A stretch of 64,000 nt of DNA, from the NCBI RefSeq assembly GCF_012927125.1, contig NZ_JABBFZ010000010.1, forward strand, positions 124,001 to 188,000, given 5' to 3'. Each line of letters begins with the position of its first letter. Position 1 is the first letter of the stretch. A program made the translations under genes and the position numbers. The notes under the pieces are model-generated. The model was not told where the DNA came from. It saw nothing but the letters and a program-made list of their open reading frames with translations, and did no database searches. The DNA comes from Paraburkholderia antibiotica (GTDB lineage Bacteria > Pseudomonadota > Gammaproteobacteria > Burkholderiales > Burkholderiaceae). Shown here piece after piece: positions 15,055 through 52,210 of this stretch.

Positions 15055-15524
15055 CGGGAGTGACGGGTGTTCCTTGGGGGGAATTTGCCGACACGCTTCG
15101 TTCATACCTGCTTGCCCGGAGATCTCGACGAGTTACTTCGCGAACTGCCCGGGCACTTCGGTCATGCGACTTAGCGAAACACGATCGAGGTCTATTCGCC
15201 TGCCGGATTGGCGTTGAATCTGGGGGGCGAATAGGCCCGTGCTTCCGAGTAGGGCGGCGAGTGGGTGGTGCCCACGACACTCGCTACCTTTATCTCGCGC
15301 AACTGCATGCGAAGCCGAATCGATAGGGAGGTGACTCACAGTGGCTGCTGTGGATTATCTCCTGCATAGGATCAATTGAGTTTCCAATAAACCCCTGATT
15401 CTGGACGATTTACGAAAATGAGCCGGTGGTAAGCCCTATCTTTCAAGATTCGGATTAGTCCACTATTGGCGGCCGAGGCGAGTGGATATCGTTTGTCAGT
15501 ACAGCTTCTGACAAAGGATCCTCT
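15055..15524. other. Boundary region between metabolic genes and the accessory island
   Basis: About 470 bp with no convincing gene. Short frames on both strands show no family resemblance. AT content rises sharply after about 15,350, marking the transition into the island. The IS5-type gene starts at 15525 after GGATCCTCT, a weak ribosome binding site. Confidence 0.4.
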
Positions 15525-15980
15525 ATGCTGACCCAGCATCGCGATATTACCGATCAAGAATGGCAGCGTGTAATGAAACTCCTGCCCGAACTTCGTCCGC
15601 GTACCGAGCTGCGTGGACGGCCACAAGCCGATACGCGCTCAGTACTTAACGGAGTACTTTGGGTTATATATAGCGGCGCTGTGTGGTCGGCCATGCCGCG
15701 CCGTTATCCCGCCTATCAAACCTGCCATCGGCGATTCAAGAACTGGTATGACAAAGGGGTGCTCAGCCTCGTGATGGTCGAACTATTCGGTGAAGCGGGC
15801 GCGGAGTTGTACGACACGATCAAGATGCGTATGCGCAATCCCGTGATCTTTACGGAGAGGTCGCTCGCAGGCAGAAGGGTGCCCAACGTGTCGAGTCAGC
15901 CACCGTTCGTATCGGCGACATCGGTGGTCGTGCCGTCTCAGTCATTTAATCATCGCCCTGCGTTTCGTCGGGAAGCCTAA
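15525..15980 (+). pseudogene. IS5-family transposase N-terminal (DUF4096) fragment
   Basis: The 151-aa frame carries the DUF4096 domain found at the N-terminus of IS5-type transposases: ITDQEWQRVMKLLPELRPR, RGRPQADTRSVLNGVLWVIY, SGAVWSAMPRRYPAYQTCHR and RFKNWYDKGVL. The DDE catalytic domain is absent. After about residue 105 the sequence loses resemblance, suggesting truncation or frameshift. Stand-alone DUF4096 proteins of similar length exist in Burkholderia, so a retained small gene is possible. It marks the left edge of the adhesin island. Confidence 0.65.
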
Positions 15981-16059
15981 GTACCGCAGTTTGCGACGTT
16001 AGGTGTGACGAATGAATCGCCGCGAGAGGACGTTCTCACGCGGATTCAGTTCACACGCT

Positions 16060-16395
16060 TCACCGGTCAGTCAGCGCCTCCACGACCTCGACGATGACTG
16101 TGTCCCACTCGCCCGGCTTGGGCTGCCGGAACAGGCGCATGGTGCGTGGATACCATGGAGAATCGGCGCGCTCGTGTAGCCAGTGCCAGTCGCAGTCGAA
16201 ATTTAGAGGCAGCCAGCACGGCTTACCTAACGCGCCGGCGAGATGTGCGACCGACGTATCTGTCGTTACCACCAGATCGAGGTTACACACGAGCGCTGCC
16301 GTATCGGCGAAATCTTCGATGTCTCCCATAACGGCGTGACTAATCTGCGTCAGCTTCTGGCCGTTTCGCTCGTCGCCGCCGGTTTCCGGCGGGGC
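16060..16395 (-). pseudogene. C-terminal remnant of a TPR-glycosyltransferase gene
   Basis: Only the end of the protein remains: DFADTAALVCNLDLVVTTDT, then SVAHLAGALGKPCWLPLNFD and SPWYPRTMRLFRQPKPGEWD. These align well with the same region of the intact gene just upstream on the same strand (SVAHLSGAIGQRTWVLLDVN, SPWYPTSTLYRQQEFAQWE). In-frame resemblance can be followed back to about 16395, almost to the stop of the intact gene at 16408. This looks like a tandem duplication whose second copy lost its TPR and central parts. Confidence 0.75.
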
Positions 16396-16407
16396 AGCGA
16401 GGGTGCA

Positions 16408-18093
16408 CTACGGCAGGACAGGCTGCTGACGTGCTTTGTGGGTGGCGGATAGATGTCGCAGATCCTGTGTCATCCTGTCGAGTACCGGCTCCCACTGCGC
16501 GAATTCTTGCTGACGGTATAGCGTCGAAGTCGGATACCACGGACTGTCGGTCCGCTCTAGCAGCCAGGGCCAGTGCGGGTTGACGTCGAGTAGTACCCAC
16601 GTGCGCTGGCCGATCGCGCCGCTCAGATGAGCGACCGACGTGCAGACCGTAATGACGAGATCCAGCGAGTCAATAAACGCAGCCGTATGGTCGAACGTTG
16701 CGAAGCTCGCAGTCGGGTCGATGAGATCGAGGCCTGCCTCCCTCGCGGCCGAGACGTCTGCGATGGCCCCGGGTTGCAGCGAATAAAAGGCCACGTCCCG
16801 CAGGTTGCCGAAATGGGCTGCGTAGCGTTCCCAACCCACACGCCGGAACGCGTTGCGCTGATGCGCCAGGCTCCCGGTCCACGCGAGTCCGACCTTCAGG
16901 CGCGGCTCGGACGCTAGCTTTGCGCGCCAGTCATCGCGCAGCGCTGGGTCGGTCGCGAGCCATGGGCCGGTCGCCTGGATTGTCGTTTCGTCGAGATTGA
17001 GTACGAGGGGCACGCTCATCAATGGAAGCTCGTAGTCGCAGGCCGGCAGCGATTCGATTCCCCCGCCAGCCGTATAGCCATCGACATACTGGCCGAGACT
17101 GCGGACAAGCAGGTTGCCTGCCAGAGGGAACGAGTTCCATATGATCCGGCCGCCTTGTGCGTGCACGCGCTCGGCCAGCATAGGGATGAAACGGCAAAAC
17201 TGAAAAAGATCGCCGAAACCCTGTTCACCCCACAAGAACAGCGTCTTGCCCGCGAGCGATTCGCCCTTCCATCGCGGTACGGGAAATAGGGGGCGTGCGC
17301 TGCGCAGTTCCGATGCTCCCAGCCAGCGTGCCTCGAAGCCCGGCCAGCCTTCCGGGTAGCGACCTCGCTGTAGGTGCAGGACGCTCTGGTTGAAACGATA
17401 TGTCGCGTTGTCAGGGTCGAGGATGCGCGCTCTCGTTGCGTAATGGTCGGCTTCGTCCCAGCGTTGTGCCTCCTTTAGCGTGAGCGACAGGTTGTTCGCC
17501 GCGGCCGCATGGTCAGGATCCAGATGCAGGGCTCGCTCGCCCGCGGCGAGCGCTCCATCGAGATCGAGTCGATCGCGCCTCGCGTTGACAAGATTGACCC
17601 AGGCATTGGTGTCGAGAGGATTCGCCTCAACCGCTTTTTCCAGTAATAAAAAGGATTCCTGCAGATCTCCGTGCGACATGCGGATGGCTGCCGCCAGGTT
17701 ATTGAGGAGCTGCGGATATTCAGGGGCTATGGCCAGCGCCCGGCGGTAAGCAACGGTGGCCTGTGCATGGCGACCAGCCGACTGCAGGGCATACCCCAAT
17801 CCAAAATGAAGTTCCGGCGCATCATGGCCGAGTAGCACTGCTACCTCACCGAGTTCGATCGAGAGTCCGGCCTGGCCTGCGCGGATTAACTCATCCATCA
17901 GTCTGACGATCGCCGACGTGCCGGTGTCGTGCAGATACGCAGCTGCCTTCAGCCAGATGGACATTGCTTCGGATTGACCACTATTCCTGGCCGCCACCGC
18001 ATGCCTCAAAAACGTGACGAAGTGCGAGGGGAGGTGAGATTCGACGGGACGTAGATCCTGCATGGTGGTTTGACCGAGATGACGATGTGGCAC
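16408..18093 (-). CDS. TPR-repeat glycosyltransferase (GT9/GT41-like)
   Basis: Up to 561 aa; MQDLRPVESH at 18063 is an alternative start. Residues about 90-260 hold TPR units with the typical W/LG/A/P pattern (APELHFGLGYALQSAGRHAQ, YRRALAIAPEYPQLLNNLAA, LDPDHAAAANNLSLTLKEAQ). Residues about 280-540 form a GT-B-like catalytic region: GKTLFLWGEQGFGDLFQFCR, RLKVGLAWTGSLAHQRNAFR, DLVITVCTSVAHLSGAIGQR and the SPWYPT ending. Such proteins are predicted sugar transferases resembling heptosyltransferases or O-GlcNAc transferases. The position beside Ser/Thr-rich adhesins fits modification of those proteins, but no substrate is shown. It diverges from the TPR gene pair. Confidence 0.82.
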   Translation of the reverse strand: MPHRHLGQTTMQDLRPVESHLPSHFVTFLRHAVAARNSGQSEAMSIWLKAAAYLHDTGTSAIVRLMDELIRAGQAGLSIELGEVAVLLGHDAPELHFGLGYALQSAGRHAQATVAYRRALAIAPEYPQLLNNLAAAIRMSHGDLQESFLLLEKAVEANPLDTNAWVNLVNARRDRLDLDGALAAGERALHLDPDHAAAANNLSLTLKEAQRWDEADHYATRARILDPDNATYRFNQSVLHLQRGRYPEGWPGFEARWLGASELRSARPLFPVPRWKGESLAGKTLFLWGEQGFGDLFQFCRFIPMLAERVHAQGGRIIWNSFPLAGNLLVRSLGQYVDGYTAGGGIESLPACDYELPLMSVPLVLNLDETTIQATGPWLATDPALRDDWRAKLASEPRLKVGLAWTGSLAHQRNAFRRVGWERYAAHFGNLRDVAFYSLQPGAIADVSAAREAGLDLIDPTASFATFDHTAAFIDSLDLVITVCTSVAHLSGAIGQRTWVLLDVNPHWPWLLERTDSPWYPTSTLYRQQEFAQWEPVLDRMTQDLRHLSATHKARQQPVLP

Positions 18094-18372
18094 GCCAGCA
18101 GTGTGGAGTCGACGACTGTTGGCAATGAGATGTTTCGAATCCTAAATGGTTTACCGGTTATTCAGCAAAGCTGCCGGGCATTTTCCAGACAGGTTCGATT
18201 CTCGTGATTCTGGCCGACGCGTATTCTGACGGCGGTCGACCTATTCAGGTCTCTATGTGGCCTCTTGTCGCATTCAGGTCCGCCAGAGCAAAGACGGGGA
18301 AGTCGCGAATCATCGATGACCATCGCTGGTGGAGTGCGTGAAGCGGGTAGCCTGCCGCGATGGAATATACAA
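18094..18372. promoter_or_regulatory. Divergent control region, TPR-glycosyltransferase / TPR operon
   Basis: This gap of about 280 bp separates divergent genes and contains a segment, roughly 18185-18345, that recurs in imperfect form upstream of the first giant adhesin. No definite promoter boxes were assigned. Confidence 0.45.
18185..18345 (+). repeat. Leader repeat, copy A
   Basis: An imperfect repeat of about 160 bp shared with 22312-22475 in the same orientation. Conserved blocks include GGTTCGATTCTCG, GCGTATTCTGA, a GACCTCT/GGCCTCT block followed by TCGCAT, and CCAGAGC-AAGACG. Copy A sits upstream of the TPR/TPR/halogenase genes and copy B upstream of the adhesin pair, so a shared regulatory leader or an old duplication is suggested. 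Confidence 0.65.
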
Positions 18373-19146
18373 ATGAATTACGACGTTGATGCAATCTCAA
18401 GTGAAGAATATCAGCGGTGTCTTGAGCGATTTTCGGCGGGCGAATACGCGGCAGCCGAACGTGGATTCCGCGCTCTGCTCGACAAATTCCCTGATTTTCC
18501 CGAAGCCTGGTACCACCTGAGCCTTCTCCGTTCGTTCCAGAAGGATACGCACGGAGCGGAAGTCGCGTTGAGGGAGGCGCTAGCGCGTGCCCCTCAACTG
18601 GCGCACGCGCATAACAATCTTGGGCGTCTGTTGATGGACTCCGATCGCTTCGAAGAGGCCGAGATGGAGTTTCGCGCTGCCATTGCGTATGGTCCGAGCG
18701 TCGTGGAGGCGCACTATAACCTTGGCTTGCTGTTGCTCCGCGCGAATCGCCTCGTCGAAGCGGAGGCCTGCCTGAGTCAGGCTATTTCGCTGCGACCAGA
18801 CTTTGCTGCGGCATATACCAATCTAGGTGCCCTATTTCTCTGCGATAGGCGTCTCGATCAGGCCCAGAGGTGTCTGATCAGGGCGATTGAGTTGAGTCCT
18901 GACTCTGCGGCGGCTCACCTGACGCTCGGCTCGGCGCTTCTGGCCGCCGATCGGGTTGGCGAAGCAATCGAGCGTCTGCAGTGCGGCTTGAGACTCGACC
19001 CCGATCATGTTTCGGGAAGGCATCTGATGAATCTGGCGCTGCAACGCGCGGGACAACAGGAAGAAACGGGTGCGCCAGATCTGGGCGCGCCGTCTGGAGT
19101 CCCTTCTCGCCGTCGTCAATACCGCCGTAAAAAGGAGCGCGTTTAA
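18373..19146 (+). CDS. TPR-repeat protein
   Basis: About 257 aa from the ATG at 18373 (MNYDVDAISSEEYQRC); an in-frame ATG at 18316 is an alternative, and neither has a strong ribosome binding site. Six or so TPR units follow each other from residue 10 to 225, for example EYAAAERGFRALLDKFPDFP, AHAHNNLGRLLMDSDRFEEA, EAHYNLGLLLLRANRLVEAE and AAYTNLGALFLCDRRLDQAQ. The C-terminus is basic (RRRQYRRKKERV). No catalytic domain is attached. The stop abuts the next TPR gene directly, so the two are one transcript. The likely role is a protein-protein scaffold for the neighbouring modification or adhesin genes; that is inferred from context. Confidence 0.8.
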   Translation: MNYDVDAISSEEYQRCLERFSAGEYAAAERGFRALLDKFPDFPEAWYHLSLLRSFQKDTHGAEVALREALARAPQLAHAHNNLGRLLMDSDRFEEAEMEFRAAIAYGPSVVEAHYNLGLLLLRANRLVEAEACLSQAISLRPDFAAAYTNLGALFLCDRRLDQAQRCLIRAIELSPDSAAAHLTLGSALLAADRVGEAIERLQCGLRLDPDHVSGRHLMNLALQRAGQQEETGAPDLGAPSGVPSRRRQYRRKKERV

Positions 19147-20211
19147 ATGACTCTGCAGCGCATCGAGACGACAACTACTGTCGCGCCGGAAGCCGAAGTG
19201 GGTCCAGCGCATGAGAAGTCGCCTGGCGGTCCCGCTCCAGATGTCGCGGCATTTAACGCTGCCGCGCTTCGTTGCATCGCCGATACTCGTTTCTCCGAGG
19301 CGCGCGCTCTGCTGGCGCAGGCGCTCGAGATCCAGCCTTCCGATCCTGTAACGCAGTGCAATCTCGGCTTGCTGTTTGCGCATGAGGGTGAGGTCCGGCT
19401 TGCGCAGCAGCACTACAGAATGGCGCAGACGCTTGCGCCTGATCTCGTTGAAGCCTATTTCAACAGTGCCGTGCTTCATCATCGTTGCTCGGAGTTTGAC
19501 GCTGCGGAGGCCGCCTATCTGCGAGCGCGGGCGCTTCGGCCATTCCATCCGGAGATCAGCTTCTGCCTCGGCACGCTTTACCGGGAAATCGGTCGAAACG
19601 AAGATGCGGCATGCGCATATCGCCGCGCTATCGAGCTCCGGAACGATTACCCCGAATCCCATCACGATCTGGGCGTCCTGCTGATGAATGGGGGAGCGCT
19701 GAGTGAAGCAGAACAGTGCTTTCGCGATGCGCTCAACCTGAGCCCCGGATATGCCGACGCACTTTACAACCTTGCACTTGTACACGGGCTGACCGGGCGA
19801 CACGCGCAAGCAGCGGAGCTCTTGCGGAGTGCCCACGCCGTTGCGCCGAATCGATCGGACATTTGCAACAATCTCGCGATGGTGCTGATGTGCGAACGCG
19901 ACACGCAGGAGGAAGCGGAGGCGTTGCTGCATGATCTGATCAAGCGTGAGCCGGAGCACCCGGAGGCTCACGCGAACCTCGGTTGCCTGCTGCGGCAGAA
20001 GGGCAACGTCGCCGAAGCTGAATCCATGTTGCGCCGGGCACTGAAGCTGCGCCCCGAGGCCGCTGAACTGGAGGAGCAACTGGGTCTGCTGTTGCAGGAG
20101 ACAGGGCGTTTTCAGGCCGCAGAGGAGGCCTATCGTCGAGCGCTGAAGCTGCGCCCGGGGCTGGTTAGCGCACAACAATACCTGGACAAACTTACCGGAA
20201 GCGTGTCCTGA
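19147..20211 (+). CDS. TPR-repeat protein
   Basis: The 354-aa product starts immediately after the preceding stop (TAAATG at 19144-19149), suggesting translational coupling. After a 35-residue Pro/Ala/Glu-rich N-terminus it has about nine TPR units, for example PVTQCNLGLLFAHEGEVRLA, PEISFCLGTLYREIGRNEDA, ADALYNLALVHGLTGRHAQA and PEAHANLGCLLRQKGNVAEA. No enzymatic domain is seen. It is followed by the halogenase-like gene 40 bp downstream. A superhelical TPR array of this length usually binds extended peptides, so it could present a protein substrate; that is inference. Confidence 0.82.
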   Translation: MTLQRIETTTTVAPEAEVGPAHEKSPGGPAPDVAAFNAAALRCIADTRFSEARALLAQALEIQPSDPVTQCNLGLLFAHEGEVRLAQQHYRMAQTLAPDLVEAYFNSAVLHHRCSEFDAAEAAYLRARALRPFHPEISFCLGTLYREIGRNEDAACAYRRAIELRNDYPESHHDLGVLLMNGGALSEAEQCFRDALNLSPGYADALYNLALVHGLTGRHAQAAELLRSAHAVAPNRSDICNNLAMVLMCERDTQEEAEALLHDLIKREPEHPEAHANLGCLLRQKGNVAEAESMLRRALKLRPEAAELEEQLGLLLQETGRFQAAEEAYRRALKLRPGLVSAQQYLDKLTGSVS

Positions 20212-20251
20212 TGAGAGGCAATCCCGGCCAGTTAATTATTTCAGTTCTCCT

Positions 20252-21766: not shown

Positions 21767-22311
21767 GGCGAGCTTTGTCTTTGCGTTGCCGGGCGAGTGA
21801 CGGGTAAAGCAAGGCGGCAGTTCTACGCGATAACCTTCTCCGTAGTTTTCGAGAAATAATAGTTAGTACTGCAGTTGGAGCAGAGATAGAGGGATCTGAC
21901 GGCTGCCGGCTGTAGCTCCCGATCATGCTTTTACTCCAGGTCAGCACAAACGCGTCGTCCGTTTGATACCCTTCCAGTCGCTCGTTCTTGATCCATTCAT
22001 TGCACAGCAGCTTCTGTCCGCCGATTCAGCCTGCCTTTCTCTTTCCGGTAGAGAAGCACACTAACGCCCCAACGGCTTCGACTTCCCAGTGATCTTTCCC
22101 AGTAAGAACAGGTCCATGGGGTGGGTCCCCAGATAGGTGATGTGACATCGTCTCTGCCTGTGCCTACGGGTTGTTATGGGCGATAAAGTCCACAGCACTC
22201 CAAGTCGTGTTCAGTACTTTTTCCTGGGGACACGGTCCAATCATGTTGATCGGTTATACGACGGGCTCGTTTGGCTGATTGGTCAAATAGTGCAAAAAAG
22301 AGGGGGGGTAA

Positions 22312-22475
22312 TTTCAGACCGGTTCGATTCTCGCGAGTTTGGGCAGCGCGTATTCTGATGTCAGTTGGTCTAGCTGGTTAGTTTTTTGTCGACCTCTCGG
22401 TCGCATCCCTATCGGCCAGAGCGAAGACGAAGGATTGGCTGCTTATCGGTGACCAGCCGGTGGTGGGGTAGATGA
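22312..22475 (+). repeat. Leader repeat, copy B
   Basis: Imperfect copy of the 18185-18345 sequence in the same orientation. It shares GGTTCGATTCTCG, GCGTATTCTGA, TCGCAT and CCAGAGC-AAGACG in the same order with similar spacing, ending in a GGTGACCAGCCGGTGGTG-like block. It lies about 600 bp before the adhesin start. Confidence 0.65.
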
Positions 22476-22639
22476 AAAATTGCGCTTCTGTTTTATCTGC
22501 CAACGTACAGCTTCTGTTCTCCCTCGTCAGGATCGTTCAGGTGCGGCTCGAGCATGACCGGCGATTCATGGCCTTGGCAATATGCCTGGCGACCATGACC
22601 TGAAGTTTCAATTATTGGTGTCGTTTCGAGGATCGTGAT

Positions 22640-22830
22640 TACTGTTGCTTGCCGATTTTGTCTGAAAAATTAGGCATTCTAATTGGTAATTTTCCGTATT
22701 TGTCGATTCGATATATGGAAATGCGCGCCAGATTTTATTTTTATAAAAATATTTATTTTTTTAATTTTTAAAAATCTTGATTATCTCGAAAAATGGCGTC
22801 CGTGAAAAATTTCAATCAAATCATTTCTGC
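22640..22830. promoter_or_regulatory. AT-rich tract upstream of adhesin 1
   Basis: About 190 bp dominated by A and T, including TTTTATTTTTATAAAAATAT-like runs near 22,732-22,775. It is unlike the rest of the window in composition and is placed 250-440 bp upstream of the adhesin start. Such tracts are typical targets of H-NS-like silencers and may carry the adhesin promoter. Confidence 0.45.
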
Positions 22831-33760: not shown

Positions 33761-33790
33761 TGAACGAGCTTAGTGCAAATTCCATGCGTG

Positions 33791-33812
33791 CCGGTCGGAT
33801 CGCTCCGACCGG
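33791..33812 (+). other. Hairpin between the two adhesin genes
   Basis: A perfect 9-bp stem (CCGGTCGGA / TCCGACCGG) with loop TCGC, 30 bases after the first adhesin stop and without a T-run. It could be a processing or partial-termination element that lets the two genes be expressed at different levels. Confidence 0.5.
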
Positions 33813-33875
33813 AGCACCGGCCGACCCATCGATTGCAGCGAAGGCGTTTGCTGTTTCCTTTGAGTACGAAACAGA

Positions 33876-42800: not shown

Positions 42801-44624
42801 GGGGATCTGTCGACTTCGACGTCGACGGGTATCAGCGATCTGTCGAGCAGTCTCGCGTCGCTCTCGACCAGCATGGGCGATCTGTCGACGACGACAACGA
42901 CGCTGTCGGCGTCGATGTCGGGTGGCATTGCGTCGCTGTCGGTCGGCATGATCACGGCTACCACGACGCTCAGTACGGTGGGGAGTTCGATTTCCACCGG
43001 AGCGAGTCTGCTTGCAAGCGGAATCGATACGGCCAACAGCACGTTGACGACACTGTCGGGTTCCAGTTCGACCGGTCTCGCGTCGTTGTCCACGAGCGTG
43101 AGCACGTTTGCGGATTCGGCGTCCACGAGCCTGAGTACGCTCGGTACGTCGACTTCGACCGGCCTCGCATCGCTTTCGAGCGGCCTGTCCACGACCGACA
43201 GCACGGTGGCGAGTCTGTCCGTCGCGGCGTCGAGCAGCTTGAGCACGTTGTCGTCGAACGCCGATTCGTTGTCGTCCAGCATGTCGACCACGAATTCGAC
43301 CATTGCCGACCTGTCGTCGTCCACGTCGTCGGGCCTTGCTTCGCTGTCGACTGCGGTCGACTCGGTATCGAGTGGTCTCGGCACGACGGATAGCACGGTC
43401 GCGAGTTTGTCGACGGCGACATCGAGCGGCTTCAGTTCGCTGTCGACGGGGCTGGATTCCGTGTCCACCGGCATTACGTCCACGGATAGCGCGATTGCCA
43501 GCCTGTCGAGTTCTGTCACGTTCGACGCGAGCGGCATGGCGGTCGATGTCGATTCGTTGTCGACGGCGTTTGGTATGACGAACAGTTCGATCTCGACTGG
43601 TCTGGCGTCGGTATCGGCGGGTGTCGGTTCGTTGTCGACCTCGAGTTCCACGGCGATCGAGGATCTCGCGGGATCGGCGTCGACCAGCCTCGGTTCGATC
43701 TCGACGAGCGTATCGACGCTGGGCATGGACATTTTGTCGCTGTCGACAGGTCTTTCCACGACGAACTCGACGGTAGCGACTCTGTCTACTTCTGTAGAAC
43801 CCCTTACTACCCAGGTGGAAGCTGCAGCAGCACAAGGTGGAACTGTTGTGGGCACGCTGATCGGCGCGGCCAACAGCAACGGTACGGTTCAGACCCAGGG
43901 TCATAGCGGCACGACGGTGAGCAATGTCGATGCCGCCAGCTGTTCGTCGGTATCGGGCGTCGATGCTACGGGTACGGGCTTGTGCGCAACCGCCACGGGC
44001 GATGGTGCAACCGCATACGGCTCGAATGCCGCGGCTACCGCGGAAGATACGACGGCGATCGGTTTCCGTGCGTCGTCGACTTACGCGGGTTCGGTGGCAA
44101 TTGGCTACAACGCGCAGGCAACTGCCGACCCGACTGTTGCAGTCGGTGCGAACTCCCGGGCCTCCGGCGACAATTCGGTCGCGCTCGGTGCGGGTGCCGT
44201 TGCAACGGGGGCGAATTCGGTCGCGCTTGGTGCGGGTTCGGTCGCGAACGAGAGCAACACGGTATCCGTGGGCGATTCGGGTAGCGAACGGCGAATCACG
44301 AACGTCGCTGCCGGTACGGACGACACTGACGCGATCAACATGAGCCAGCTCAACGCTGTCACCGGCGGGGTCAATAGCGCGATGCAGAGTATCGGCCGGA
44401 ATGCGTACTCGGGTGTTGCATCGGCTGTGGCACTGTCGATGATCCCGGGTGTCGACGCCGACAAGTCGATGTCGATCGGGGTTGGCGCAGGCAGCTACGC
44501 CGGGTATCACGCGTTAGCAGTCGGCGTGACGATGCGCGTTACGCAAAACATCGGTATGAAGGTGGGTGTCGGCGTCTCGACCAATAACAAGAACGTGGGT
44601 ATAGGTATGACGTACACGTATTAA
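33876..44624 (+). CDS. Giant trimeric autotransporter adhesin 2 (YadA-like, SLST repeats)
   Basis: 3,582 aa, starting directly at the ESPR MNKNYRSIYNETLGAWVAVS, 115 bp after adhesin 1. The plan is the same as in adhesin 1. Signal region and a Cys (VDCGML) come first, then a YadA-type head (about 215-450, including ATGCGSQATGLGSTALGWG) and the neck LRRLTNVADGADPQDVATVA. A Ser/Thr-rich coiled-coil stalk spans about 490-3305. The C-terminal head carries the Cys pair in ASCSSVSGVDATGTGLCAT. The neck ERRITNVAAGTDDTDAINMS and YadA anchor end in KNVGIGMTYTY. The stalk has more Ala/Val and less regular repeats than adhesin 1 and contains its own 1,530-bp-spaced duplication. N- and C-terminal parts are clearly paralogous to adhesin 1. 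It is probably transported as a homotrimer by type Vc secretion. Confidence 0.95.
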   Translation: MNKNYRSIYNETLGAWVAVSEIDTARGKKSRSKSVAGPALGRAVLAMSVAGVLSGGALDPAYAGLVTGNAAKLGDSAYSSDTAVVSYHYYQGNSTASIGGVALAGAVDCGMLVPYGTTVTSSTTNGVGITNSVAATSATIYGTNSSYKGGLYGFGAQTSVANYGTSSNAGTGNSGITPTWTAAGTVSGNLLAYTGSNGSSNASTGTGTNTTNLGNIVATSINTLATGCGSQATGLGSTALGWGAAASGTGALSMGINSTASGQGSFAFGAWSTASGTDSLAMGALTTAASTGAIALGSATNVGTGVASGIAIGNLATVSGAYGIAQGDSSVAGATGQNVAIGNSASATAGTGAGGAVALGSMTNATGDGALAIGRSGTAVGTAAMALGNASSATGDGAIAMGNTAVANGTNAVAIGNGASAQYDGSVAIGAGSTTAGSASAALGYGTSTTASGEVSFGAAGNLRRLTNVADGADPQDVATVAQLSTVVSALEPGVASISTAGSTLAANLTSLSTSASTGLDTIGQGITGANSTVSSLSSSASTSIAGLNTSLSTTNSNLTVLTTSMSSGIDALGTSLSTTGSDLDALSSSTASNLSSTNSTLSALSNSASTGLITLSTSMSVANSTFQSLSVSTADRFVTANSSISSLSLSTSNALTSTNSSLSTLSDTTTSTMASLSNSATSVSGSVSTGLDMLTTSMSTTSSSLRVLSLSTSDAIGSMSTTLSSLDTNLTPSLSTLSAGVSSLTASTSTNIASVSTGIDSISTSASTNIASVSTAQSSLSTAASTAFSSIASNVTGLSTSTSTGLASLSTGIASTNNDLKVMSSSISSGLTSVSSSESSLSTSMTSLSTGIDTANSTISTMASSVSGNEASLSSVLGSTQSNLADLSTSGATGMAALSGTLNTISSSASSGLASYSVAVGVLSASASSSFVTMASGLTRTNSYLDSLSASLSTGNDWLASSMSTMDSNVADLSSSSSTAVSNTSASLSVAGSVYSDLSATTASGLASLSTGLDGLAASASTSFANETTGVASVSTSLSAANSSVDGLSTSLDSTNSQIASWADSASSGLSTLSTGLQSADSSIVALAVSASTSSAQLSTSLDTANSNLTVLGSSASTSVAQLTTGLSSVTSSALSLSTGINTLSTSESTGLSNLSAGLATVGSNLANTTTQVSSGIAGTSTGLANAANSVASLSSGLSTADSNVSALSTSFDGTNSTVSSLSSTMSGNLASISSSLSTTGTALASLSATSSAGIGSLSSGVAAAGSTVTSLSVSTSGTVSLLSTQLAGVASSTTSLSTGIDGLSTSLDTTNSSLLSVSASTAGSMSAVSTGLVTTGSTLDNLASTSAAAAASLSTSLGTVGSNFTSVSTSTASAVASLSSGLVGTASGVTSLSVGLDTFSGSTSTGVGSLSTVLLATGNALNSMSASASTGLGSLSTGVASANSALASVSQFSSTSTASLSSSLEGSTGAVSDLSASTSSSVGSLSTSLAGTASGIDSLSTGISSLSTSTSTGLSSLATGASTLGGAVAQMSTSLSGSLSTAASGLATTSNNVALLSGSTSASFGSLSTGIDALTSTATSVAATASTGLASLSTGATTAGSTLASVSTSAALAVTSLSSGIADAGNTLARLSVSSAADLTSLSTTLSGATSSLSSQSNSLDALSGSASVGLSSLSSGLSTTNSNVAGLVVTTSSGIASMTSGLSTVNSGIADLGVAASTGMTSIGTQLSTTDSALAGLEVSGSTSLSSLSSAMGDMSATIGASLSTVSSNVSSLSTAMGTTNSNVSSLSTNLQTAASNVASLSVSASTGLVSVSTAMAGADSTVSSLSTSTDAGLVSLSTGASTTASGLTSLSTATVAGLSSLSTSVADLAATSSQQLALMTGNADGVSASLSSTNLGAALLSAGLDTTASRVASLSTTTMTDMSSLSSGVAGATSNLASLSSTVAVDVTSLSTGIAGTGSTLDSLSVSSAADVTSLATTLAGTTSSITSLSSGLDTLSGSASVGLSSLSSGLSTTGSNVADLAGTTSSGLSSLTGSVSSAASNVASLSVSTSVGVTSLSTALNSLSASGSTGLASLSTGVDALTSTATSVAATASTGLASLSTGATTAGSTLASVSTSAALAVTSLSSGIADAGNTLARLSVSSAADLTSLSTTLSGATSSLSSQSSSLDALSGSASVGLSSLSSGLSTTNSNVAGLVVTTSSGIASMTSGLSTVNSGIADLGVAASTGMTSIGTQLSTTDSALAGLEVSGSTSLSSLSSAMGDMSATIGASLSTVSSNVSSLSTAMGTTNSNVSSLSTNLQTAASNVASLSVSASTGLVSVSTAMAGADSTVSSLSTSTDAGLVSLSTGASTTASGLTSLSTATVVGLSSLSTGTSSLASAVGSLSSGLDGFSTSMSTGVSSLAVGLGATQNNVANLVTSSSTALAPLSTDLADVESTLSSVSSETSTGIAALSGSLSTTGSTLGDLAVSGSTSLASLSSGIATNGSKIASLSGSLSTGIGSLSTSLGSATSSMTNLSVSTASGFSSLSSGVSSTNSTAASLSVSTLAGLSALSTGLAAATDDTQSLADSTLSGMSSLSSGLSTTTSTVASLSVSGSTSLTSMSSELSSVGSTLTSLSASTLGDVNSLSSGLAAVTNDLGNMSASSSTSLASLSSGLVGQQGALGSLSTGSSESVASLSTGISGTISNLTTLSTGLDTLSGSTSTGFASLSSGFDSTSSALDTLDASTSTGLQSLSTSLSTVNTTVAGLSTTLVDGVASLSSGLSTVGDVYTSMSGSATVGLAQASASVSSVTSAVSSLSTSMDLLSTSTSTGLAQLSTGLSTTNSNVASISTSFSTGADLVTAALSTTQSSFAGLSASVSTGAGSLSSGLSTTQSTVANLDVSTSAGLSSISSSVSTVVGAVSSLESSSSTAVTSLSTALVGEQSSVYSLSSATSVSLSSLSTGISTVDGAIDSLSTSTSTSLASVSTGAGDLSTSTSTGISDLSSSLASLSTSMGDLSTTTTTLSASMSGGIASLSVGMITATTTLSTVGSSISTGASLLASGIDTANSTLTTLSGSSSTGLASLSTSVSTFADSASTSLSTLGTSTSTGLASLSSGLSTTDSTVASLSVAASSSLSTLSSNADSLSSSMSTTNSTIADLSSSTSSGLASLSTAVDSVSSGLGTTDSTVASLSTATSSGFSSLSTGLDSVSTGITSTDSAIASLSSSVTFDASGMAVDVDSLSTAFGMTNSSISTGLASVSAGVGSLSTSSSTAIEDLAGSASTSLGSISTSVSTLGMDILSLSTGLSTTNSTVATLSTSVEPLTTQVEAAAAQGGTVVGTLIGAANSNGTVQTQGHSGTTVSNVDAASCSSVSGVDATGTGLCATATGDGATAYGSNAAATAEDTTAIGFRASSTYAGSVAIGYNAQATADPTVAVGANSRASGDNSVALGAGAVATGANSVALGAGSVANESNTVSVGDSGSERRITNVAAGTDDTDAINMSQLNAVTGGVNSAMQSIGRNAYSGVASAVALSMIPGVDADKSMSIGVGAGSYAGYHALAVGVTMRVTQNIGMKVGVGVSTNNKNVGIGMTYTY
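38577..39475 (+). repeat. Long internal duplication in adhesin 2, copy 1
   Basis: About 900 bp nearly identical to 40107-41005, offset 1,530 bp and in frame. It encodes the segment from GIDALTSTATSVAATASTGL through SLSTATVAGLSSLST; the second copy has VVGL in place of VAGL. Confidence 0.9.
40107..41005 (+). repeat. Long internal duplication in adhesin 2, copy 2
   Basis: Second copy of 38577-39475 with few substitutions (for example SQSNSLD versus SQSSSLD). The offset of 1,530 bp is the same as for the unrelated duplication inside adhesin 1. Confidence 0.9.
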
Positions 44625-44649
44625 CGTACGTCGCGCTACGGGGTAAGGG

Positions 44650-44686
44650 TGCCGCGGGCCTGTTTCAACGAAGCTGGTCCGCGGCA
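44650..44686 (+). other. Hairpin between adhesin 2 and the DUF2827 genes
   Basis: An 8-bp stem TGCCGCGG / CCGCGGCA with a 21-base loop lies in the 88-bp gap. There is no T-run. It may limit read-through from the adhesin into the DUF2827 genes or protect the downstream mRNA. Confidence 0.4.
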
Positions 44687-44712
44687 TTAGTATGTCAATC
44701 GGGAAGGAATCA

Positions 44713-45858
44713 ATGCGTATCGGAATTTCCGTTCTTAGTCATCAGGGGCAGAATATCTGGGAAAATGGCCTAGGGCAGAACACTATATTTATTGCACAGG
44801 CGTTTCAACGTCTCCCATTTGTGCAATCGGTCGTACTAATCGATGTTGGCAGTGAAGGTCAATTGCCGGCTGATGTAGACCACGTAGCGCCGGGGCTCAG
44901 CATCGTCACACAGCAGCAGGCCACCGACAAAGTCGACGTGATCGTCGAGATGGCCGGGGCGCTGGACAATGCGTGGCTCGACCTGATGCGCGCGCGCGGC
45001 CGCAAGGTCGTCTACTACTGCTGTGGTCAGCCTTATGTCGGACTCGTGGAGCCGGCCGTGTTCAATCGGCCGGTCCATTCGTCACGTCCGGATCGTTGTG
45101 ACGAAATCTGGGTGCTGCCGAAAGACGAGGCATGCGTTCCGATGATGCGAACGTTGCATCGCTGTCCGGTGCATGTGGTGCCGTATGTGTGGCATCAGCA
45201 GTTTCTTGAAAAGCGTATCCGTGAAGTTGCGGCACACGGTTTTCATTATGGCTACGAGGCCGCTCGCGAAGCGCGCCAAAGCGCGGGTGGTGGATTGCGC
45301 GTCGCAATCTTCGAACCGAACATCTCGGTCGTGAAGACGTCGAGCATACCCATGCTGGTGTGTGATGAGGCTTACCGGGCGGAGCGTGACAGCGTCGCCG
45401 CGATGCACGTGCTTAATACGTTGCATATCAAGGACCACGTCACGATGCTGCATCTGGCTAATTCGCTTGATCTGGTGCGGGAGCATCACGCAACCTTCCA
45501 CGGACGGCACGACATCGTCGGCTTTATGGCACAGCATGCCGACGCGGTCGTCGCGCATCAATGGTGCAACGATCAGAATTACAGTTACCTGGACGTACTG
45601 TATGGCGACTACCCGCTGATCCACAACTCGCCGTGGCTCGCGGAGATGGGCGCGGGTTACTACTACGAAGGCTTCGACGCGAAGCAGGGTGGGGAAGAGT
45701 TGCTTGGCGCCTCGCGCCATCATGATGAGCAACTCCAGACGTACCGTGAACGGGCCCGCACTGTTTTCGACAAGGTCGATCCATTTGGGGAGGCCAATCT
45801 TGCTCAGTATGCCGCACGACTTCAGAGTCTTGCGGGCTCGAACGGTGTGGGGACCTGA
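44713..45858 (+). CDS. DUF2827 family protein, first of three
   Basis: 381 aa from MRIGISVLSHQGQNIWENGL; GGAAGGAA precedes this ATG, so it is preferred over the ATG at 44692. Conserved with its two neighbours are WENGxxQN near the start, EPNISVVKTSSIPMLVCDEA around residue 200, and HQWCNDQNYSYLDVLYGDYP followed by LIHNS around residue 282. A Gly/Tyr/Asp-rich stretch then follows (GAGYYYEGFDAKQGGEEL). The two-domain pattern with a C-terminal xPLIHNS segment resembles GT-B glycosyltransferases; a sugar-transferase role is inference, as the family is uncharacterised. It forms an operon with the next two genes and follows the adhesins. Confidence 0.82.
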   Translation: MRIGISVLSHQGQNIWENGLGQNTIFIAQAFQRLPFVQSVVLIDVGSEGQLPADVDHVAPGLSIVTQQQATDKVDVIVEMAGALDNAWLDLMRARGRKVVYYCCGQPYVGLVEPAVFNRPVHSSRPDRCDEIWVLPKDEACVPMMRTLHRCPVHVVPYVWHQQFLEKRIREVAAHGFHYGYEAAREARQSAGGGLRVAIFEPNISVVKTSSIPMLVCDEAYRAERDSVAAMHVLNTLHIKDHVTMLHLANSLDLVREHHATFHGRHDIVGFMAQHADAVVAHQWCNDQNYSYLDVLYGDYPLIHNSPWLAEMGAGYYYEGFDAKQGGEELLGASRHHDEQLQTYRERARTVFDKVDPFGEANLAQYAARLQSLAGSNGVGT

Positions 45859-45861
45859 GGC

Positions 45862-47040
45862 ATGAAGAATTCAAACGTTGCAAAGAAAAAGGCTGATACG
45901 AAGGGGCGGCGCCAGAATCTGAAAGTGGGCGTGTCGCTTTTTGTGCGTAAGGGACAGCAGTCCCTGTGGGAAAACGGCATTTTCCAGAACTGCCTGTTTC
46001 TCGTGATGTTGCTCAAGCAGGTGCCGTCGATCGGCGAGGTGTACCTGGTGGTGGGCGGGGGCGGCGGAGACGTCGAGGACGCAAAGAATTTCATCGAGGA
46101 TTCGCCTGCTCCTCTGATCGATCTGAACGATGCGATGAACCAGCTCGATCTGATGATCGAAATGAGCGCGCAGTTGAATCGCGAGTGGATCGTATCGTTT
46201 CGGGAGCGTGGCGGGCGCGTGATTTCCATGCGAGTCGGGAACGACTATGTGATCGATATCGAGCGAATGGTCTTCGACCGCCAGCAGGCGCTTTTGATTA
46301 GTGCCGCGCCGTATGACGAAATCTGGACGCTGCCCGAGTACGAACGCACATGCATGCCGTACTACCGCAGCGCCATGCGCGCGCCGGTGCGTCTGATGCC
46401 GCATCTGTGGAGTCCCGTCGTGCTCGAGCGGGCTGCCACCGCACTCCCGGACGGCGAGTCGTTTGGCTACAAGCCGGGGCGTCCTCGCTGGCGCGCGGGC
46501 GTTTTTGAGCCAAACATCTGTATGGTGAAGACGAGCCAGATTCCGATGCTGTGCTGCGAAAATGCACATCGGGAGAATGCGGATGTACTGGAGCACGTGT
46601 GGGTTTACAACACGGTGGGCGTCAAGGAGCATGCCGGCTTCTTCGCATTCGCACGGAGCCTCGACATTGTGAAGCACGGAATTGCGTCTTTCGAGGGGCG
46701 TTTTCCGTTCTGGCAGGTCATGTCGAAATATGTCGACGTCGTGGTGACTCACCAGTGGGAGAACGCACAAAACTACGTCTACTACGAAGCACTGTATGGT
46801 GGCTACCCGCTGATTCACAACTCGCATCTGATCGGCGATTGCGGCTACCGCTATCACGACTTCGATTGCGAAGAAGGAGGCGGCATGCTATTGCACGCGT
46901 TCAACATGCACGATCTCAACCTCGATGCATACCGGCGTAAAGCGGGCGCGTTTTTGAAGACATTGGATCCTTTGAATGCGGCCAACGTGAAAATCTACGG
47001 CGACGCGATCGACGCGGTATTCGATAGAGGCGAACGATGA
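45862..47040 (+). CDS. DUF2827 family protein, second of three
   Basis: 392 aa, starting 3 bp after the previous stop; TGAGGC acts as ribosome binding site. The first 20 residues are basic (NVAKKKADTKGRRQNLK) and absent from the paralogues. The conserved blocks are SLWENGIFQNCLFLVMLLKQ, EPNICMVKTSQIPMLCCENA, HQWENAQNYVYYEALYGGYP and LIHNSHLIGDCGYRYHDFDC. It also carries the acidic VGGGGGDVEDAKNF loop. Divergence from the first copy suggests a distinct substrate or donor specificity within one pathway. Confidence 0.82.
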   Translation: MKNSNVAKKKADTKGRRQNLKVGVSLFVRKGQQSLWENGIFQNCLFLVMLLKQVPSIGEVYLVVGGGGGDVEDAKNFIEDSPAPLIDLNDAMNQLDLMIEMSAQLNREWIVSFRERGGRVISMRVGNDYVIDIERMVFDRQQALLISAAPYDEIWTLPEYERTCMPYYRSAMRAPVRLMPHLWSPVVLERAATALPDGESFGYKPGRPRWRAGVFEPNICMVKTSQIPMLCCENAHRENADVLEHVWVYNTVGVKEHAGFFAFARSLDIVKHGIASFEGRFPFWQVMSKYVDVVVTHQWENAQNYVYYEALYGGYPLIHNSHLIGDCGYRYHDFDCEEGGGMLLHAFNMHDLNLDAYRRKAGAFLKTLDPLNAANVKIYGDAIDAVFDRGER

Positions 47041-48167
47041 CCGGAAAACTGCGTGTCGGAATTACGATCGGCCTGGGCCAGCCCGACGAAACGCTCTGGA
47101 ACAACGGCATCAAGCAGAACGCCGTGTTTCTCGCCGAGGCGTTGCGCCACTGCCCGAATGTCGAGAGCACCGTGCTCGTGAATACCACGGGCGTGCCGAT
47201 CACCGCGGCACTTCCGTGGGATCAAACGCGCTGGCCCGTATTGTCATTCGACGACGCGAAGGACAATCTGGACATTCTGATCGAGCTCGGTGGTCAGACG
47301 GATCCCGTGCGTACGGCGTATTTGAAGGAACGCGGTACTCGTCTCGTTTCGTATTGCTGCGGGTTCGAATACATCCATGCTGCCGAAGCAATGATGTTCG
47401 GCAAGAAGATGTGGGACGGCAACCTCTTCGTGAACCAGCGTTATGACGCGCTCTGGTTTATTCCACAGGTGGCGGGTAATACGCAGTCGTATCTCGAGGT
47501 AATGAGACGCGTGCCCGGTCAGGTGGTGCCGTTCGTGTGGAGCCCGGTGTTTCTGGCGGAGCGCTCACGCAACTTTCCGGACGAGGGGCAATATCGGCCT
47601 CGCCAAGGTCCGCGTAGGCTCACGGTCATGGAGCCGAACATCAATATTGTGAAGTTCTGTCTGTATCCGATATTGATAGCGGAGCTCGTTTACCGGGATC
47701 GTCCGACGGACATTGAATTGCTGCAGGTCGCCAATGCGTTTCCGATGGCACAGACGAATCGCGACTTTATTGCGCTCATGAACCACCTCGATATTGTCCG
47801 CGGGGGAAAGGCGTTGTTTACGGGCCGGCACGACACGCCAACGTTTCTGGCAACCAATACAGATATCGTGCTTTCTCACCAGATGGAGAATCCACTTAAC
47901 TATTTTTACCTGGAGGTGTGCTGGCAAGGGTACCCGCTCATCCACAACGCGACGCTGTGTGATGACCTCGGCTATTACTACTCTGGCAACGATGCAGAGG
48001 CGGGGGCGCAACGGCTGAACGAAGTCATCGATTCTCACGACGAGAATGCCGTGTCATACCGTGACGGACAGCGTGCGATGATCCAGCGCTACTTGCCAGA
48101 TAACAAGGATGTTGTCTCGACCTATAGTGCGTTGCTGGAAAACCTGATGAAAGCGCCGCTACGCTAA
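47037..48167 (+). CDS. DUF2827 family protein, third of three
   Basis: 376 aa; its ATG overlaps the preceding stop (ATGA), so it is translationally coupled. Conserved blocks are TLWNNGIKQNAVFLAEALRH, EPNINIVKFCLYPILIAELV (less conserved than in the paralogues), and SHQMENPLNYFYLEVCWQGY followed by PLIHNATLCDDLGYYYSGND. The HQW motif is changed to HQM here and KTS to KFC, so it may have a different specificity or a regulatory role. No terminator was recognised after it. Confidence 0.82.
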   Translation: MTGKLRVGITIGLGQPDETLWNNGIKQNAVFLAEALRHCPNVESTVLVNTTGVPITAALPWDQTRWPVLSFDDAKDNLDILIELGGQTDPVRTAYLKERGTRLVSYCCGFEYIHAAEAMMFGKKMWDGNLFVNQRYDALWFIPQVAGNTQSYLEVMRRVPGQVVPFVWSPVFLAERSRNFPDEGQYRPRQGPRRLTVMEPNINIVKFCLYPILIAELVYRDRPTDIELLQVANAFPMAQTNRDFIALMNHLDIVRGGKALFTGRHDTPTFLATNTDIVLSHQMENPLNYFYLEVCWQGYPLIHNATLCDDLGYYYSGNDAEAGAQRLNEVIDSHDENAVSYRDGQRAMIQRYLPDNKDVVSTYSALLENLMKAPLR

Positions 48168-48245
48168 AGTTCCGATTCTGTATCGCCATTTGTCTGCGTC
48201 ACTGCTAAACAGGCAGGTATTAATTTGTTTGTTGATCTAGATACT

Positions 48246-48581
48246 ATGAATATAAAATTTTCTATTGCTGCGCTTATGGTTGTGTCGACGTCCTTGATCT
48301 CGGGATGTTCAATCTACTCGGATCCAATGCAAGTCACCACGCAAGTTTCTACTGCGAGCGGCATGCAATATCACGTCAAATGTGGCGGCATTTTGGGCTC
48401 GTCGTCCGTTTGTGCGCGGCAGATGCAGAAGATATGTGGCGACCACCGGATACAGCAACTGGAAGTCGGGGACTCCAAAGATCCCGGATTTGCATCGGGA
48501 GATGATCCGCGCAGCGTGACGTTCATGTGTATTGCTTCGAACGGCAGCGCCGCGGGTGGGAAGGAGACGCATACCCAGTAA
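48246..48581 (+). CDS. Small putative lipoprotein
   Basis: 111 aa from ATG 48246 (MNIKFSIAALMVVSTSLISG); the upstream ATG at 48225 would disturb the signal. A signal peptide ends in the lipobox LISGC, giving a lipidated Cys near residue 21. The mature part has five further Cys (VKCGG, SVCAR, KICGD, FMCIAS), compatible with disulfides in the periplasm. No family recognised. It lies 78 bp after the DUF2827 genes on the same strand and may assist biogenesis of the adhesins. Confidence 0.7.
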   Translation: MNIKFSIAALMVVSTSLISGCSIYSDPMQVTTQVSTASGMQYHVKCGGILGSSSVCARQMQKICGDHRIQQLEVGDSKDPGFASGDDPRSVTFMCIASNGSAAGGKETHTQ

Positions 48582-48694
48582 GCGTTAGCCAGTCGGCTTA
48601 TTGGTTCTTTCCGTTCATCGGATACGCGGATAACGCCTGGAACAGTCCAGTCATTCCGCTTGAGTAAGTTTGTTTATCATTGTCTGAGCGATTA

Positions 48695-49300
48695 ATGAAG
48701 ACTGTTCTGTATGCGAGCCGGCGTGGCTTGATTCGTCTTTTGTGGAGTCTTCTGGCCATATCGGCGTCCGTGGCGACGGTGCATGCGCAAAGTATCCTCG
48801 CGCCTACCGCCGCCACACCTGAGCACCGGAATCCGCTGGTGCTTGCCGCTGGTAACGTCGGCGTACGCCAATGTCTACCGGCACTGAATTCGCTATCGGA
48901 ATTCGGTGTACGCGACGCGCGTAACAGCGATGTATTGCTCGATTGGGATCATCGCAGGCCAAACGGCGCTGCGGTGTTCTCTCTACTCGGTCTGGAGGCG
49001 CGTACGGCCGGCAATGGGGTCATGTCGATCGTGGCCGTGCCCGAAGCCGATGGCTCGTGTTCGGCATCCGCCGAACGGATTTCTGTTGAACCCAAGTCTT
49101 GTAAGGCGGTTGCCGAAGCGGAGTTGCGCGGATTTCAGGCGACACAGCTGTTGCCTCATATGACTGTCTACGCCAAGCAGCAGGAACCTGGATCGACTAT
49201 TTCGCTGGTAGAAACATCCGGAAGCTGTCTGATGATCCGGCGTTTTGTGAAATATTCGGCAGGATGGACTGCGGCAGGCGCAATCGATACTGCGAAATAA
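48695..49300 (+). CDS. Secreted protein of unknown function
   Basis: About 201 aa from MKTVLYASRRGLIRLLWSLL; the frame opens at 48680. A Tat-like or Sec-type signal peptide ends near VATVHAQ|S. The mature protein has four Cys (RQCLP, GSCSAS, KSCKAV, GSCLMI) and no recognised domain. Placement after the lipoprotein on the same strand suggests it belongs to the adhesin locus, for instance as a periplasmic or surface accessory factor. It ends the plus-strand run; the response regulators that follow are on the other strand. Confidence 0.7.
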   Translation: MKTVLYASRRGLIRLLWSLLAISASVATVHAQSILAPTAATPEHRNPLVLAAGNVGVRQCLPALNSLSEFGVRDARNSDVLLDWDHRRPNGAAVFSLLGLEARTAGNGVMSIVAVPEADGSCSASAERISVEPKSCKAVAEAELRGFQATQLLPHMTVYAKQQEPGSTISLVETSGSCLMIRRFVKYSAGWTAAGAIDTAK

Positions 49301-51472: not shown

Positions 51473-51500
51473 GGTGAGTTCCAGATGGTGCTGTTTCTAA

Positions 51501-51972: not shown

Positions 51973-51989
51973 TATGGTCCGCCCTGGTT

Positions 51990-52205: not shown

Positions 52206-52210
52206 GCTAC

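Follow-up and report, generated by a model that had tools for sequence, protein, structure and literature searches.

Introduction

Cytoplasmic glycosylation of autotransporters by BAHT enzymes (TibC, Aah, BimC) is established (PMC8151025), as is N-glycosylation of trimeric autotransporter adhesins (TAAs) (PMC8151025; PMC5303269). For BCAM2418 of Burkholderia cenocepacia, a serine-rich TAA, O-glycosylation was speculated on by its authors, and the excerpts available to us name no enzyme for it (PMC7142374). Here we analyze a 64,000-nucleotide stretch of the Paraburkholderia antibiotica genome (the window; contig NZ_JABBFZ010000010.1, positions 124,001 to 188,000), in which two giant Ser/Thr-rich TAAs are followed by three genes of the DUF2827 family and preceded by genes for tetratricopeptide-repeat (TPR) proteins, a TPR-glycosyltransferase (TPR-GT) and a halogenase-like enzyme. 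Coordinates are positions in the window, and gene neighborhoods of relatives are named by G- and L- locus labels.

The locus resembles each of the described systems in part. Its adhesins are serine-rich TAAs, as is BCAM2418. TAAs are also the proteins glycosylated by the HMW1C/NGT systems of Actinobacillus, Kingella and Aggregatibacter (PMC8151025; PMC5303269), but there the sugar is N-linked at Asn, whereas the window has Ser/Thr-dominated stalks and another enzyme family. The systems for Gram-positive serine-rich repeat adhesins (GtfA/GtfB; SdgA/SdgB) show ~10% identity to the window system, which differs from them by type Vc export, a trimeric coiled-coil stalk and three DUF2827 paralogs. 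FlmG of Caulobacter, a flagellin O-glycosyltransferase, combines TPRs with a GT-B domain, and its TPR domain confers substrate binding (PMC7591256). Within the sources reached by our literature search, no O-glycosyltransferase is named for a Ser/Thr-rich TAA; for DUF2827 the same sources are almost silent, the family being named in one database paper on cysteines in DUF families.

Results

DUF2827 genes are tightly linked to Ser/Thr-rich adhesins

The two adhesin genes, TAA1 (23084..33760, + strand) and TAA2 (33876..44624, + strand), are followed after 68 nt by three DUF2827 genes encoding putative GT-B glycosyltransferases, one in each of three tree classes: D1 (44692..45858, +; PF10933, E 3.5e-121), D2 (45862..47040, +; E 1e-140) and D3 (47037..48167, +; E 4.1e-137). 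The gap between D1 and D2 is +4 nt and D2 and D3 overlap (-3 nt), a spacing as in an operon. Profile scans and inspection of open reading frames (ORFs) placed all the genes named in the original prediction where it had put them.

That prediction had proposed an adhesin-modification locus from the co-location of these genes, a proposal that random placement of DUF2827 relative to such adhesins in related genomes would have undone. The placement is not random. Linkage was compared in 32 genomes with 49 DUF2827 clusters and 150 of 160 YadA anchors (the DUF2827 genomes G032, G056, G060, G063, G079 and G082 lay outside the anchor search). For 38 of the 49 clusters a YadA anchor is found at a distance of 12 kb or less, against 0.89 expected, and for 28 at 1.5 kb or less. 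The 38 include the G199 cluster, 220 bp from an anchor, which was added to the 37 clusters of the listed comparison. Among the 11 remaining clusters, five are fragmentary or near contig ends (G033:C9, the end of G062:C1, G062:C38, G062:C14 and G070) and six are unlinked (two in G010, G033:C23, G037, G044:C2 and G093). In other genera an anchor lies no more than 12.5 kb away from 16 of the 20 clusters for which coordinates are listed. G573 was scored as a miss, but next to its triplet is a Ser/Thr-rich ORF that the contig end truncates. The grouping of DUF2827 with TAAs is not chance.

The linkage is specific to one kind of TAA, which is the strongest result of the analysis. Each TAA was scored by its best 200-residue window of Ser+Thr content. 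TAAs in DUF2827 neighborhoods (n = 33) have a median score of 0.60, and 32 of them reach at least 0.40; TAAs of DUF2827-free genomes (n = 45, drawn from 83 listed TAAs in 19 of 20 genomes, mostly the long ones) have a median of 0.28 and a maximum of 0.33, with none at 0.40 (Mann-Whitney p 5e-13, uncorrected for relatedness). A second DUF2827-free set of 29 TAA ends, scored with a 150-residue window over at most 460 residues before the anchor, had a maximum of 0.35 (one of 30 loci yielded none). In the first set of DUF2827 genomes, the region near the anchor has a median score of 0.23 across 18 TAAs that are not linked to DUF2827. Only one exceeds 0.35, that of G093, whose DUF2827 cluster is itself unlinked. 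A Ser/Thr-rich TAA (0.57–0.73) also stands away from the listed DUF2827 copies in G010, G033, G093, G528 and G544, and neither of the two TAAs of G070, which has a DUF2827 fragment only, is Ser/Thr-rich. The link between DUF2827 and Ser/Thr-rich TAAs is tight, and the presence of the family is almost diagnostic of such adhesins.

The adhesin stalks are Ser/Thr-dominated and nearly free of charge

Both window adhesins are type Vc proteins of ~3,560 aa with similar starts. A Pfam scan of TAA1 found ESPR (7.4e-13), YadA_head (6.4e-26), YadA_stalk (1.7e-12) and YadA_anchor (1.3e-14) domains; TAA2 was covered by the PF03895 anchor search, which matched the C-termini of both proteins (window 33581 and 44445; E 2.1e-16 and 1.1e-13). 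An initial choice of GTG 22925 as the start of TAA1 was dropped for ATG 23084.

The Ser/Thr richness attributed to these proteins from the outset is real: about half of the stalk residues are Ser or Thr, with 947 S and 504 T in the 2,748-residue stalk of TAA1 and 845 S and 435 T in the 2,772 residues of TAA2. Hydrophobic residues recur in both stalks with a period of 7/11/14/18/25. In 82 TAA1 stretches picked by an SLS spacing of 25, so that S-L-S is given by the selection, the remaining core positions are L/V/I and the rest mostly Ser/Thr. As read from its sequence, the stalk is a coiled coil of 25-residue repeats whose surface is made of Ser and Thr. Charged residues are few. Among TAAs of 700 aa or more, 33 from loci with DUF2827 or the halogenase (those of L111 and L112 are counted here) have a median K+R content of 0.4% in the trimmed stalk, versus 3.3% in the 45 TAAs of DUF2827-free genomes.

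In G078C32, G030C1, G075C2, G082C89, G056C71, G760C1, G370C2 and G528 a short ORF resembling the C-terminal domain of OmpA is found close to the TAA, in many cases immediately following it. It resembles TpgA, the partner of AtaA (PMC8151025).

DUF2827 forms three classes with a predicted GT-B fold

PF10933 occurs in 34 of 146 relatives. Across the bacterial family it was detected in 86 of 299 genomes, 85 of them scoring above the cut-off, and in 11 of 25 genera; in the sample of the order it was detected in 8 of 399 genomes, 7 of them above the cut-off. The genes often form triplets. A phylogeny of 101 DUF2827 proteins taken from the neighborhoods resolved three well-supported classes: D3 (100/100, 31 rows), D1 (100/99, 31 of its 32 rows) and D2 (96/92, 38 rows plus one labeled D1). 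Assigned by best match, all three classes are present in 27 of 39 neighborhoods, a set that includes G009C12, which has no DUF2827 on its contig. In genus g61, DUF2827 is found in many genomes (5.5–9 Mb) among those listed, typically as two adjacent copies with a third a few kb off on the opposite strand.

The AlphaFold2 model of D2 (pLDDT 87.6, pTM 0.87) matches the GT-B enzymes TarM, SdgB, BshA, PglA and HepE and the lipopolysaccharide (LPS) glycosyltransferase 5n80. The predicted fold has the two Rossmann-like domains of GT-B enzymes, with a donor-binding C-terminal domain, and DUF2827 is therefore predicted to be of GT-B fold, as the comparison proposed with the original prediction had anticipated. 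A scan of NCBIfam gave no match for DUF2827. In the alignment, an acidic residue at 309, K223 and E216 are kept across D1–D3; the acidic spacing is EX8E, unlike the EX7E of the GT4 motif. DUF2827 also differs from the BAHT enzymes, its matches being GT-B enzymes of other kinds, BshA and TarM among them.

A TPR-glycosyltransferase is present but widespread

The TPR-GT (16408..18093, - strand) has an N-terminal TPR solenoid (residues ~22–260) and a C-terminal GT-B domain that is GT9/TibC-like (~280–556). It shares the GT9-type fold with TibC, Aah and BimC at ~10% identity, the TPR solenoid being extra. BimC has a four-Cys iron finger (PMC11499645), whereas the glycosyltransferase half of the TPR-GT has only 3 scattered Cys. 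Its order of TPR N-domain and GT-B C-domain is that of FlmG, to which we liken it by architecture; the substrate of FlmG is flagellin (PMC7591256), unlike the adhesin proposed here.

Homologs of the TPR-GT occur in 16 of the 39 neighborhoods, of which one lies on a contig that lacks DUF2827, and are common across Burkholderiales generally. The domain composition foreseen for this protein was found, but it is not restricted to adhesin loci, and we rejected it as a specific partner of the locus because the family is so widespread.

An optional halogenase is coupled to TPR proteins and often lies beside giant adhesins

Upstream of TAA1 lie two genes with matches to Pfam TPR families, TPR protein a (18265..19146, +; likelier start ATG about 18316) and TPR protein b (19147..20211, +), and a gene for a flavin-dependent (tryptophan) halogenase-like enzyme (20252..21766, +; PF04820, E 1.9e-98, 330.7 bits). 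The halogenase matches 30 PDB sequences over its whole length, RebH and PrnA among them; the best is 6frl (E 2.5e-59), BrvH, an indole brominase. A catalytic Lys, a catalytic Glu and the WxWxIP motif have known roles in flavin-dependent halogenases. K81, W277, P282 and E350 are invariant in 37 aligned sequences and W279 and I281 nearly so, so that the catalytic Lys and Glu positions are kept. The protein thus has the profile, the whole-length homology and the Lys/Glu and WxWxIP positions of a tryptophan halogenase, but the window clade differs from BrvH, RebH and PrnA as a separate group that is TPR-coupled (fused in Collimonas) and often found beside giant adhesins.

In a survey of 398 family genomes, with at most three candidates scored per genome, no close copies were met outside G000 (two), G009 (87% identical to the window copy), G760 and G062, and G515 has a 48% copy; 28 other genomes gave 30–35% matches or short fragments. 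Any halogenase match at all was found in 4 of 34 DUF2827 genomes, one of these a fragment with stops. The halogenase is optional in DUF2827 loci, and on this count we rejected it as a regular part of them.

Seven loci form the close clade (58–100% identity: the window, G000C11, G062C4, G009/L111, L112, G760 and L113). In all seven a homolog of TPR protein b is directly upstream of the halogenase, and a protein similar to TPR protein a is found in related halogenase loci. A TAA is present in six; the contig of the seventh, L113, stops just past the halogenase. G000C11, G062C4 and L112 share the arrangement TAA-D1-D2-TPR(GT-like)-TPR-halogenase, the cassette taking the usual place of D3.

Further out, 6 of 15 distant loci (about 38–51% identity) have a giant Bap-like adhesin just upstream of the halogenase, three in Variovorax and three in Enterobacterales; five are directly adjacent, and in Enterobacillus an OmpA-type gene lies between. 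Pfam scans of four of these adhesins found Big_13/Big_6 repeats. Genes identified downstream are ABC, HlyD and OEP in L119, ABC and HlyD in L124 and ABC in L115; one ORF each in L115 and L116 had no family match. One of three Acinetobacter loci has a TPS/ShlB pair upstream of the halogenase. Among 62 outgroup loci (28–35% identity) there was no Bap-like match, TAA anchor or TPR match, and ORFs of at least 1,400 aa occur in 5 of the 62 versus 8 of 18 clade loci. No Bap-like or TAA match was found beside the halogenase in Limnobaculum, Trabulsiella, Ensifer or G515 (for G515 in a comparison with TAAs and window genes only), and the L113, L125 and L126 loci are on short contigs. Placement in an adhesin locus is not universal across the wider clade. 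The contrast between clade and outgroup loci suggests that the halogenase may serve adhesins.

In Collimonas humicola (L117 9989–12436) the halogenase is fused to C-terminal TPRs in a protein of 815 aa. It is flanked by a terminase small subunit gene and a gene resembling a type VI secretion system (T6SS)/phage baseplate hub, possibly marking a prophage-like element. Two large ORFs follow the halogenase in three TAA loci, G062C4 (L072 7174–14926), L112 (11881–20013) and G000C11 (26996–34753). Those of G062C4 encode an acyltransferase-acyl carrier protein (ACP) and a KS-KR-DH protein resembling polyketide synthases (PKS); the first of L112 encodes an acyltransferase-ACP.

Two candidate marks of halogenation targets were rejected. 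A tyrosine motif of the window TAA heads (SMIYG...GLYGFG) is also present in the TAAs of G039 and G064, neighborhoods without a halogenase match, and so does not mark a target. Aromatic targets in the stalk were set aside because each window stalk, counted from residue 500 to the last 250, holds only 1–2 Trp and 4–5 Tyr.

A halogenase beside an adhesin had been expected to be new. In 2016, however, the ant symbiont Candidatus Tokpelaia hoelldoblerii was reported to carry a tryptophan halogenase gene that immediately follows the gene of a type I protein with Ig repeats (6,177 aa), with the gene order kept in Bartonella tamiae; the large protein was proposed to attach to gut epithelium, and the halogenase was read by the authors as antibiotic- or competition-related (PMC5156944). 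The pairing with giant type I proteins, shared with the Variovorax and Enterobacterales loci, is therefore not new. The excerpts of that report describe no TAA, TPR or DUF2827 partner and no idea of adhesin modification (PMC5156944), and in the literature as far as our search reached we met neither the TAA-DUF2827-TPR-halogenase arrangement nor any proposal of adhesin halogenation. Engineered flavin-dependent halogenases have been used on peptides and proteins (PMC9775415).

Flanking genes

To the left the locus is bounded by a fragment of an IS5-type transposase (15525..15980, +; PF13340, E 3.3e-23; a match to NF033580 is under the curated cut-off), which stands outside the proposed mechanism. 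Past D3 lie a small lipoprotein-like ORF (48225..48581, +; lipobox-like ISGC by eye, likelier start ATG about 48246) and a secreted-protein-like ORF (48680..49300, +; likelier start ATG about 48695); neither matched a family in a Pfam scan. Counting the window, homologs of the lipoprotein-like ORF occur in 7 of 39 neighborhoods and those of the secreted-protein-like ORF in 12 of 39, often between D2 and D3, and the latter is possibly a periplasmic helper of TAA export. Rfam and tRNA scans gave no match.

Four response-regulator genes with LuxR-type DNA-binding domains (49693–56284, -) are interrupted by IS110- and IS3-type transposases at 52211–54188. Their homologs recur in 9 of 39 neighborhoods, window included, and they may therefore regulate the adhesin locus. 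When 505 otherwise unassigned ORFs from 38 neighborhoods were clustered, one family, present in 16 of the 38, had a two-component response regulator as a member, and another, in 10 of the 38, an EAL-domain protein; two-component and cyclic-di-GMP signaling may control these adhesins. A GT34-like protein (L056 8330–9652, -, in G010C14), whose family is found in G000C34, G010C14, G033C9 and G080C1, is a possible further glycosyltransferase of the system.

Farther right in the window are a gene for a large OmpA-domain protein with a weak DUF937 match (57408–59342, -), which itself or through a relative of its OmpA domain is represented in 9 of 39 neighborhoods, window included, and a gp25-like baseplate wedge gene with a ClpV-like AAA ATPase ORF, identified by eye (61436–63998, -), which is the edge of a T6SS cluster.

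Discussion

Of the interpretation first put forward for this locus, the linkage of DUF2827 to the adhesins and its predicted GT-B fold have been borne out; the TPR-GT is no specific partner and the halogenase is optional. We consider it likely that DUF2827 proteins are cytoplasmic GT-B glycosyltransferases dedicated to Ser/Thr-rich TAA stalks, with the TPR-GT as an accessory and the halogenase as an optional module. Comparative genomics and the predicted fold give good support to this putative TAA-stalk glycosyltransferase function of DUF2827.

The model starts from the observed gene order and linkage, the tie between Ser/Thr richness and DUF2827, the predicted folds and the conserved residues; from these we infer glycosyl transfer, a donor sugar, an order of action, a compartment and any action of the halogenase on the adhesin. 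D1, D2 and D3, usually encoded just past the adhesin, would act in sequence or on different acceptors. One class would prime Ser/Thr hydroxyls where the coiled-coil stalk exposes them, the others would extend or vary the glycan, and glycosylation would precede export via Sec and the YadA anchor. Because the stalk is nearly without charged residues, the sugars would make it soluble and stiff, as charges do in the stalks of ordinary TAAs. The TPR-GT may be an accessory glycosyltransferase whose TPR part holds the adhesin, as in FlmG. The halogenase and its TPR partners could form an optional second module, with the TPRs as its tether either to the adhesin or to the machinery of glycosylation.

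Several observations weigh against a glycosyltransferase dedicated to Ser/Thr-rich TAAs. The GT-B fold is also that of VldE and UDP-GlcNAc 2-epimerase, so the fold alone is no proof of a transferase, and a search of DUF2827 sequence against PDB chains gave no match at E ≤ 1. Position 300 is Glu in D2 and varies in D1 (mostly Q, also D and C), which has D at 309, so D1 may differ in activity. The TAA beside DUF2827 in G056C71 scores 0.27, though a contig end cuts it. G037 has a DUF2827 pair, but its six listed TAAs do not exceed 0.31 (for one of them the score covers just the part near the anchor). G549 has DUF2827 and a single listed TAA at 0.29. Conversely, 7 of 27 TAAs of other genera without shown linkage reach at least 0.40, all in DUF2827 genomes (G551, G573, G593, G528, G544, G518 and G524; the places of DUF2827 are unlisted for G593, G518 and G524), and the 0.43 TAA of G551 is far from that genome's listed DUF2827 cluster, so that not every Ser/Thr-rich TAA adjoins DUF2827. 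The genomes are related, and the counts are thus not independent events.

DUF2827 might instead make a surface polysaccharide or lipid-linked glycan and travel with the adhesin as a surface-variation island without acting on it. PglA, HepE and 5n80 are among the structural matches, mobile elements flank the window locus and the GT34-like ORF family is present in 4 of 38 neighborhoods. We nevertheless regard this as improbable: the tie is to Ser/Thr richness rather than to TAAs in general, DUF2827 genes that are unlinked still co-occur with Ser/Thr-rich TAAs, and of the clustered ORFs only five families reached at least five neighborhoods (16, 10, 10, 6 and 5). Scanned members of three of these proved to be a response regulator, an EAL-domain protein and a PKS/SDR-like protein, and one more is LysR-like by eye; none resembled a polysaccharide pathway, flippases and polymerases having had no profile search. 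The stalks could also be unmodified coiled coils, with DUF2827 proteins, having lost sugar transfer, as their dedicated chaperones or as factors for their export. HMW1C, a glycosyltransferase, has been hypothesized to double as a chaperone (PMC8151025), and the variation of D1 at the position that is Glu in D2 fits such a loss. This we hold to be very improbable, as the polar residues kept in all three classes, acidic 309 and K223 included, suggest a maintained active site and the near-absence of stalk charge fits a solubilizing modification.

The most novel element of the locus is the halogenase. That its clade, partly TPR-coupled, halogenates giant adhesins or their glycans across secretion types seems to us unlikely; the targets would be the Ser/Thr-rich TAAs of Paraburkholderia and its kin and the Bap-like type I adhesins of Variovorax and Enterobacterales, and in TAAs halogenation would add a post-translational modification to glycosylation by DUF2827. 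There is a somewhat less than even chance that the halogenase and its TPR proteins belong to a small-molecule or acyl pathway merely located in the adhesin locus. Its closest solved relative by sequence, 6frl, is an indole brominase, and the stalks offer only the few Trp and Tyr counted above. In G062C4 the halogenase is followed by the acyltransferase-ACP gene and the KS-KR-DH PKS-like gene, and in Burkholderia sp. SRS-W-2-2016 by an acyltransferase-ACP gene and a 2,160-aa ORF. The G000C11 ORFs correspond in size and position, and the bigger of the two clusters with the PKS-like ORF. An antibiotic role was also suggested by the authors for their halogenase (PMC5156944). Among the listed genes beside or between the halogenase and the TAA, however, the window, G009 and G760 loci have no such pair, the large upstream ORF of G760 being an FAD-oxidase-type protein. 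The TAA in six and the upstream TPR gene in seven of the seven close-clade loci, and the Bap-like adhesin in 6 of 15 distant versus 0 of 62 outgroup loci, also argue against a pathway unrelated to adhesins, as does the pairing, in another gene order, with a giant Ig-like type I protein (PMC5156944).

If DUF2827 proteins are the glycosyltransferases of Ser/Thr-rich TAAs, a family present in 86 of 299 sampled genomes gains a testable function, and a multi-enzyme, probably O-linked route is added to the modification of TAAs. Such a route would explain how a coiled coil nearly without charged residues can be soluble and exportable. Should the halogenase act on the adhesin or its sugar, the locus would in addition provide for halogenation of a surface adhesin.

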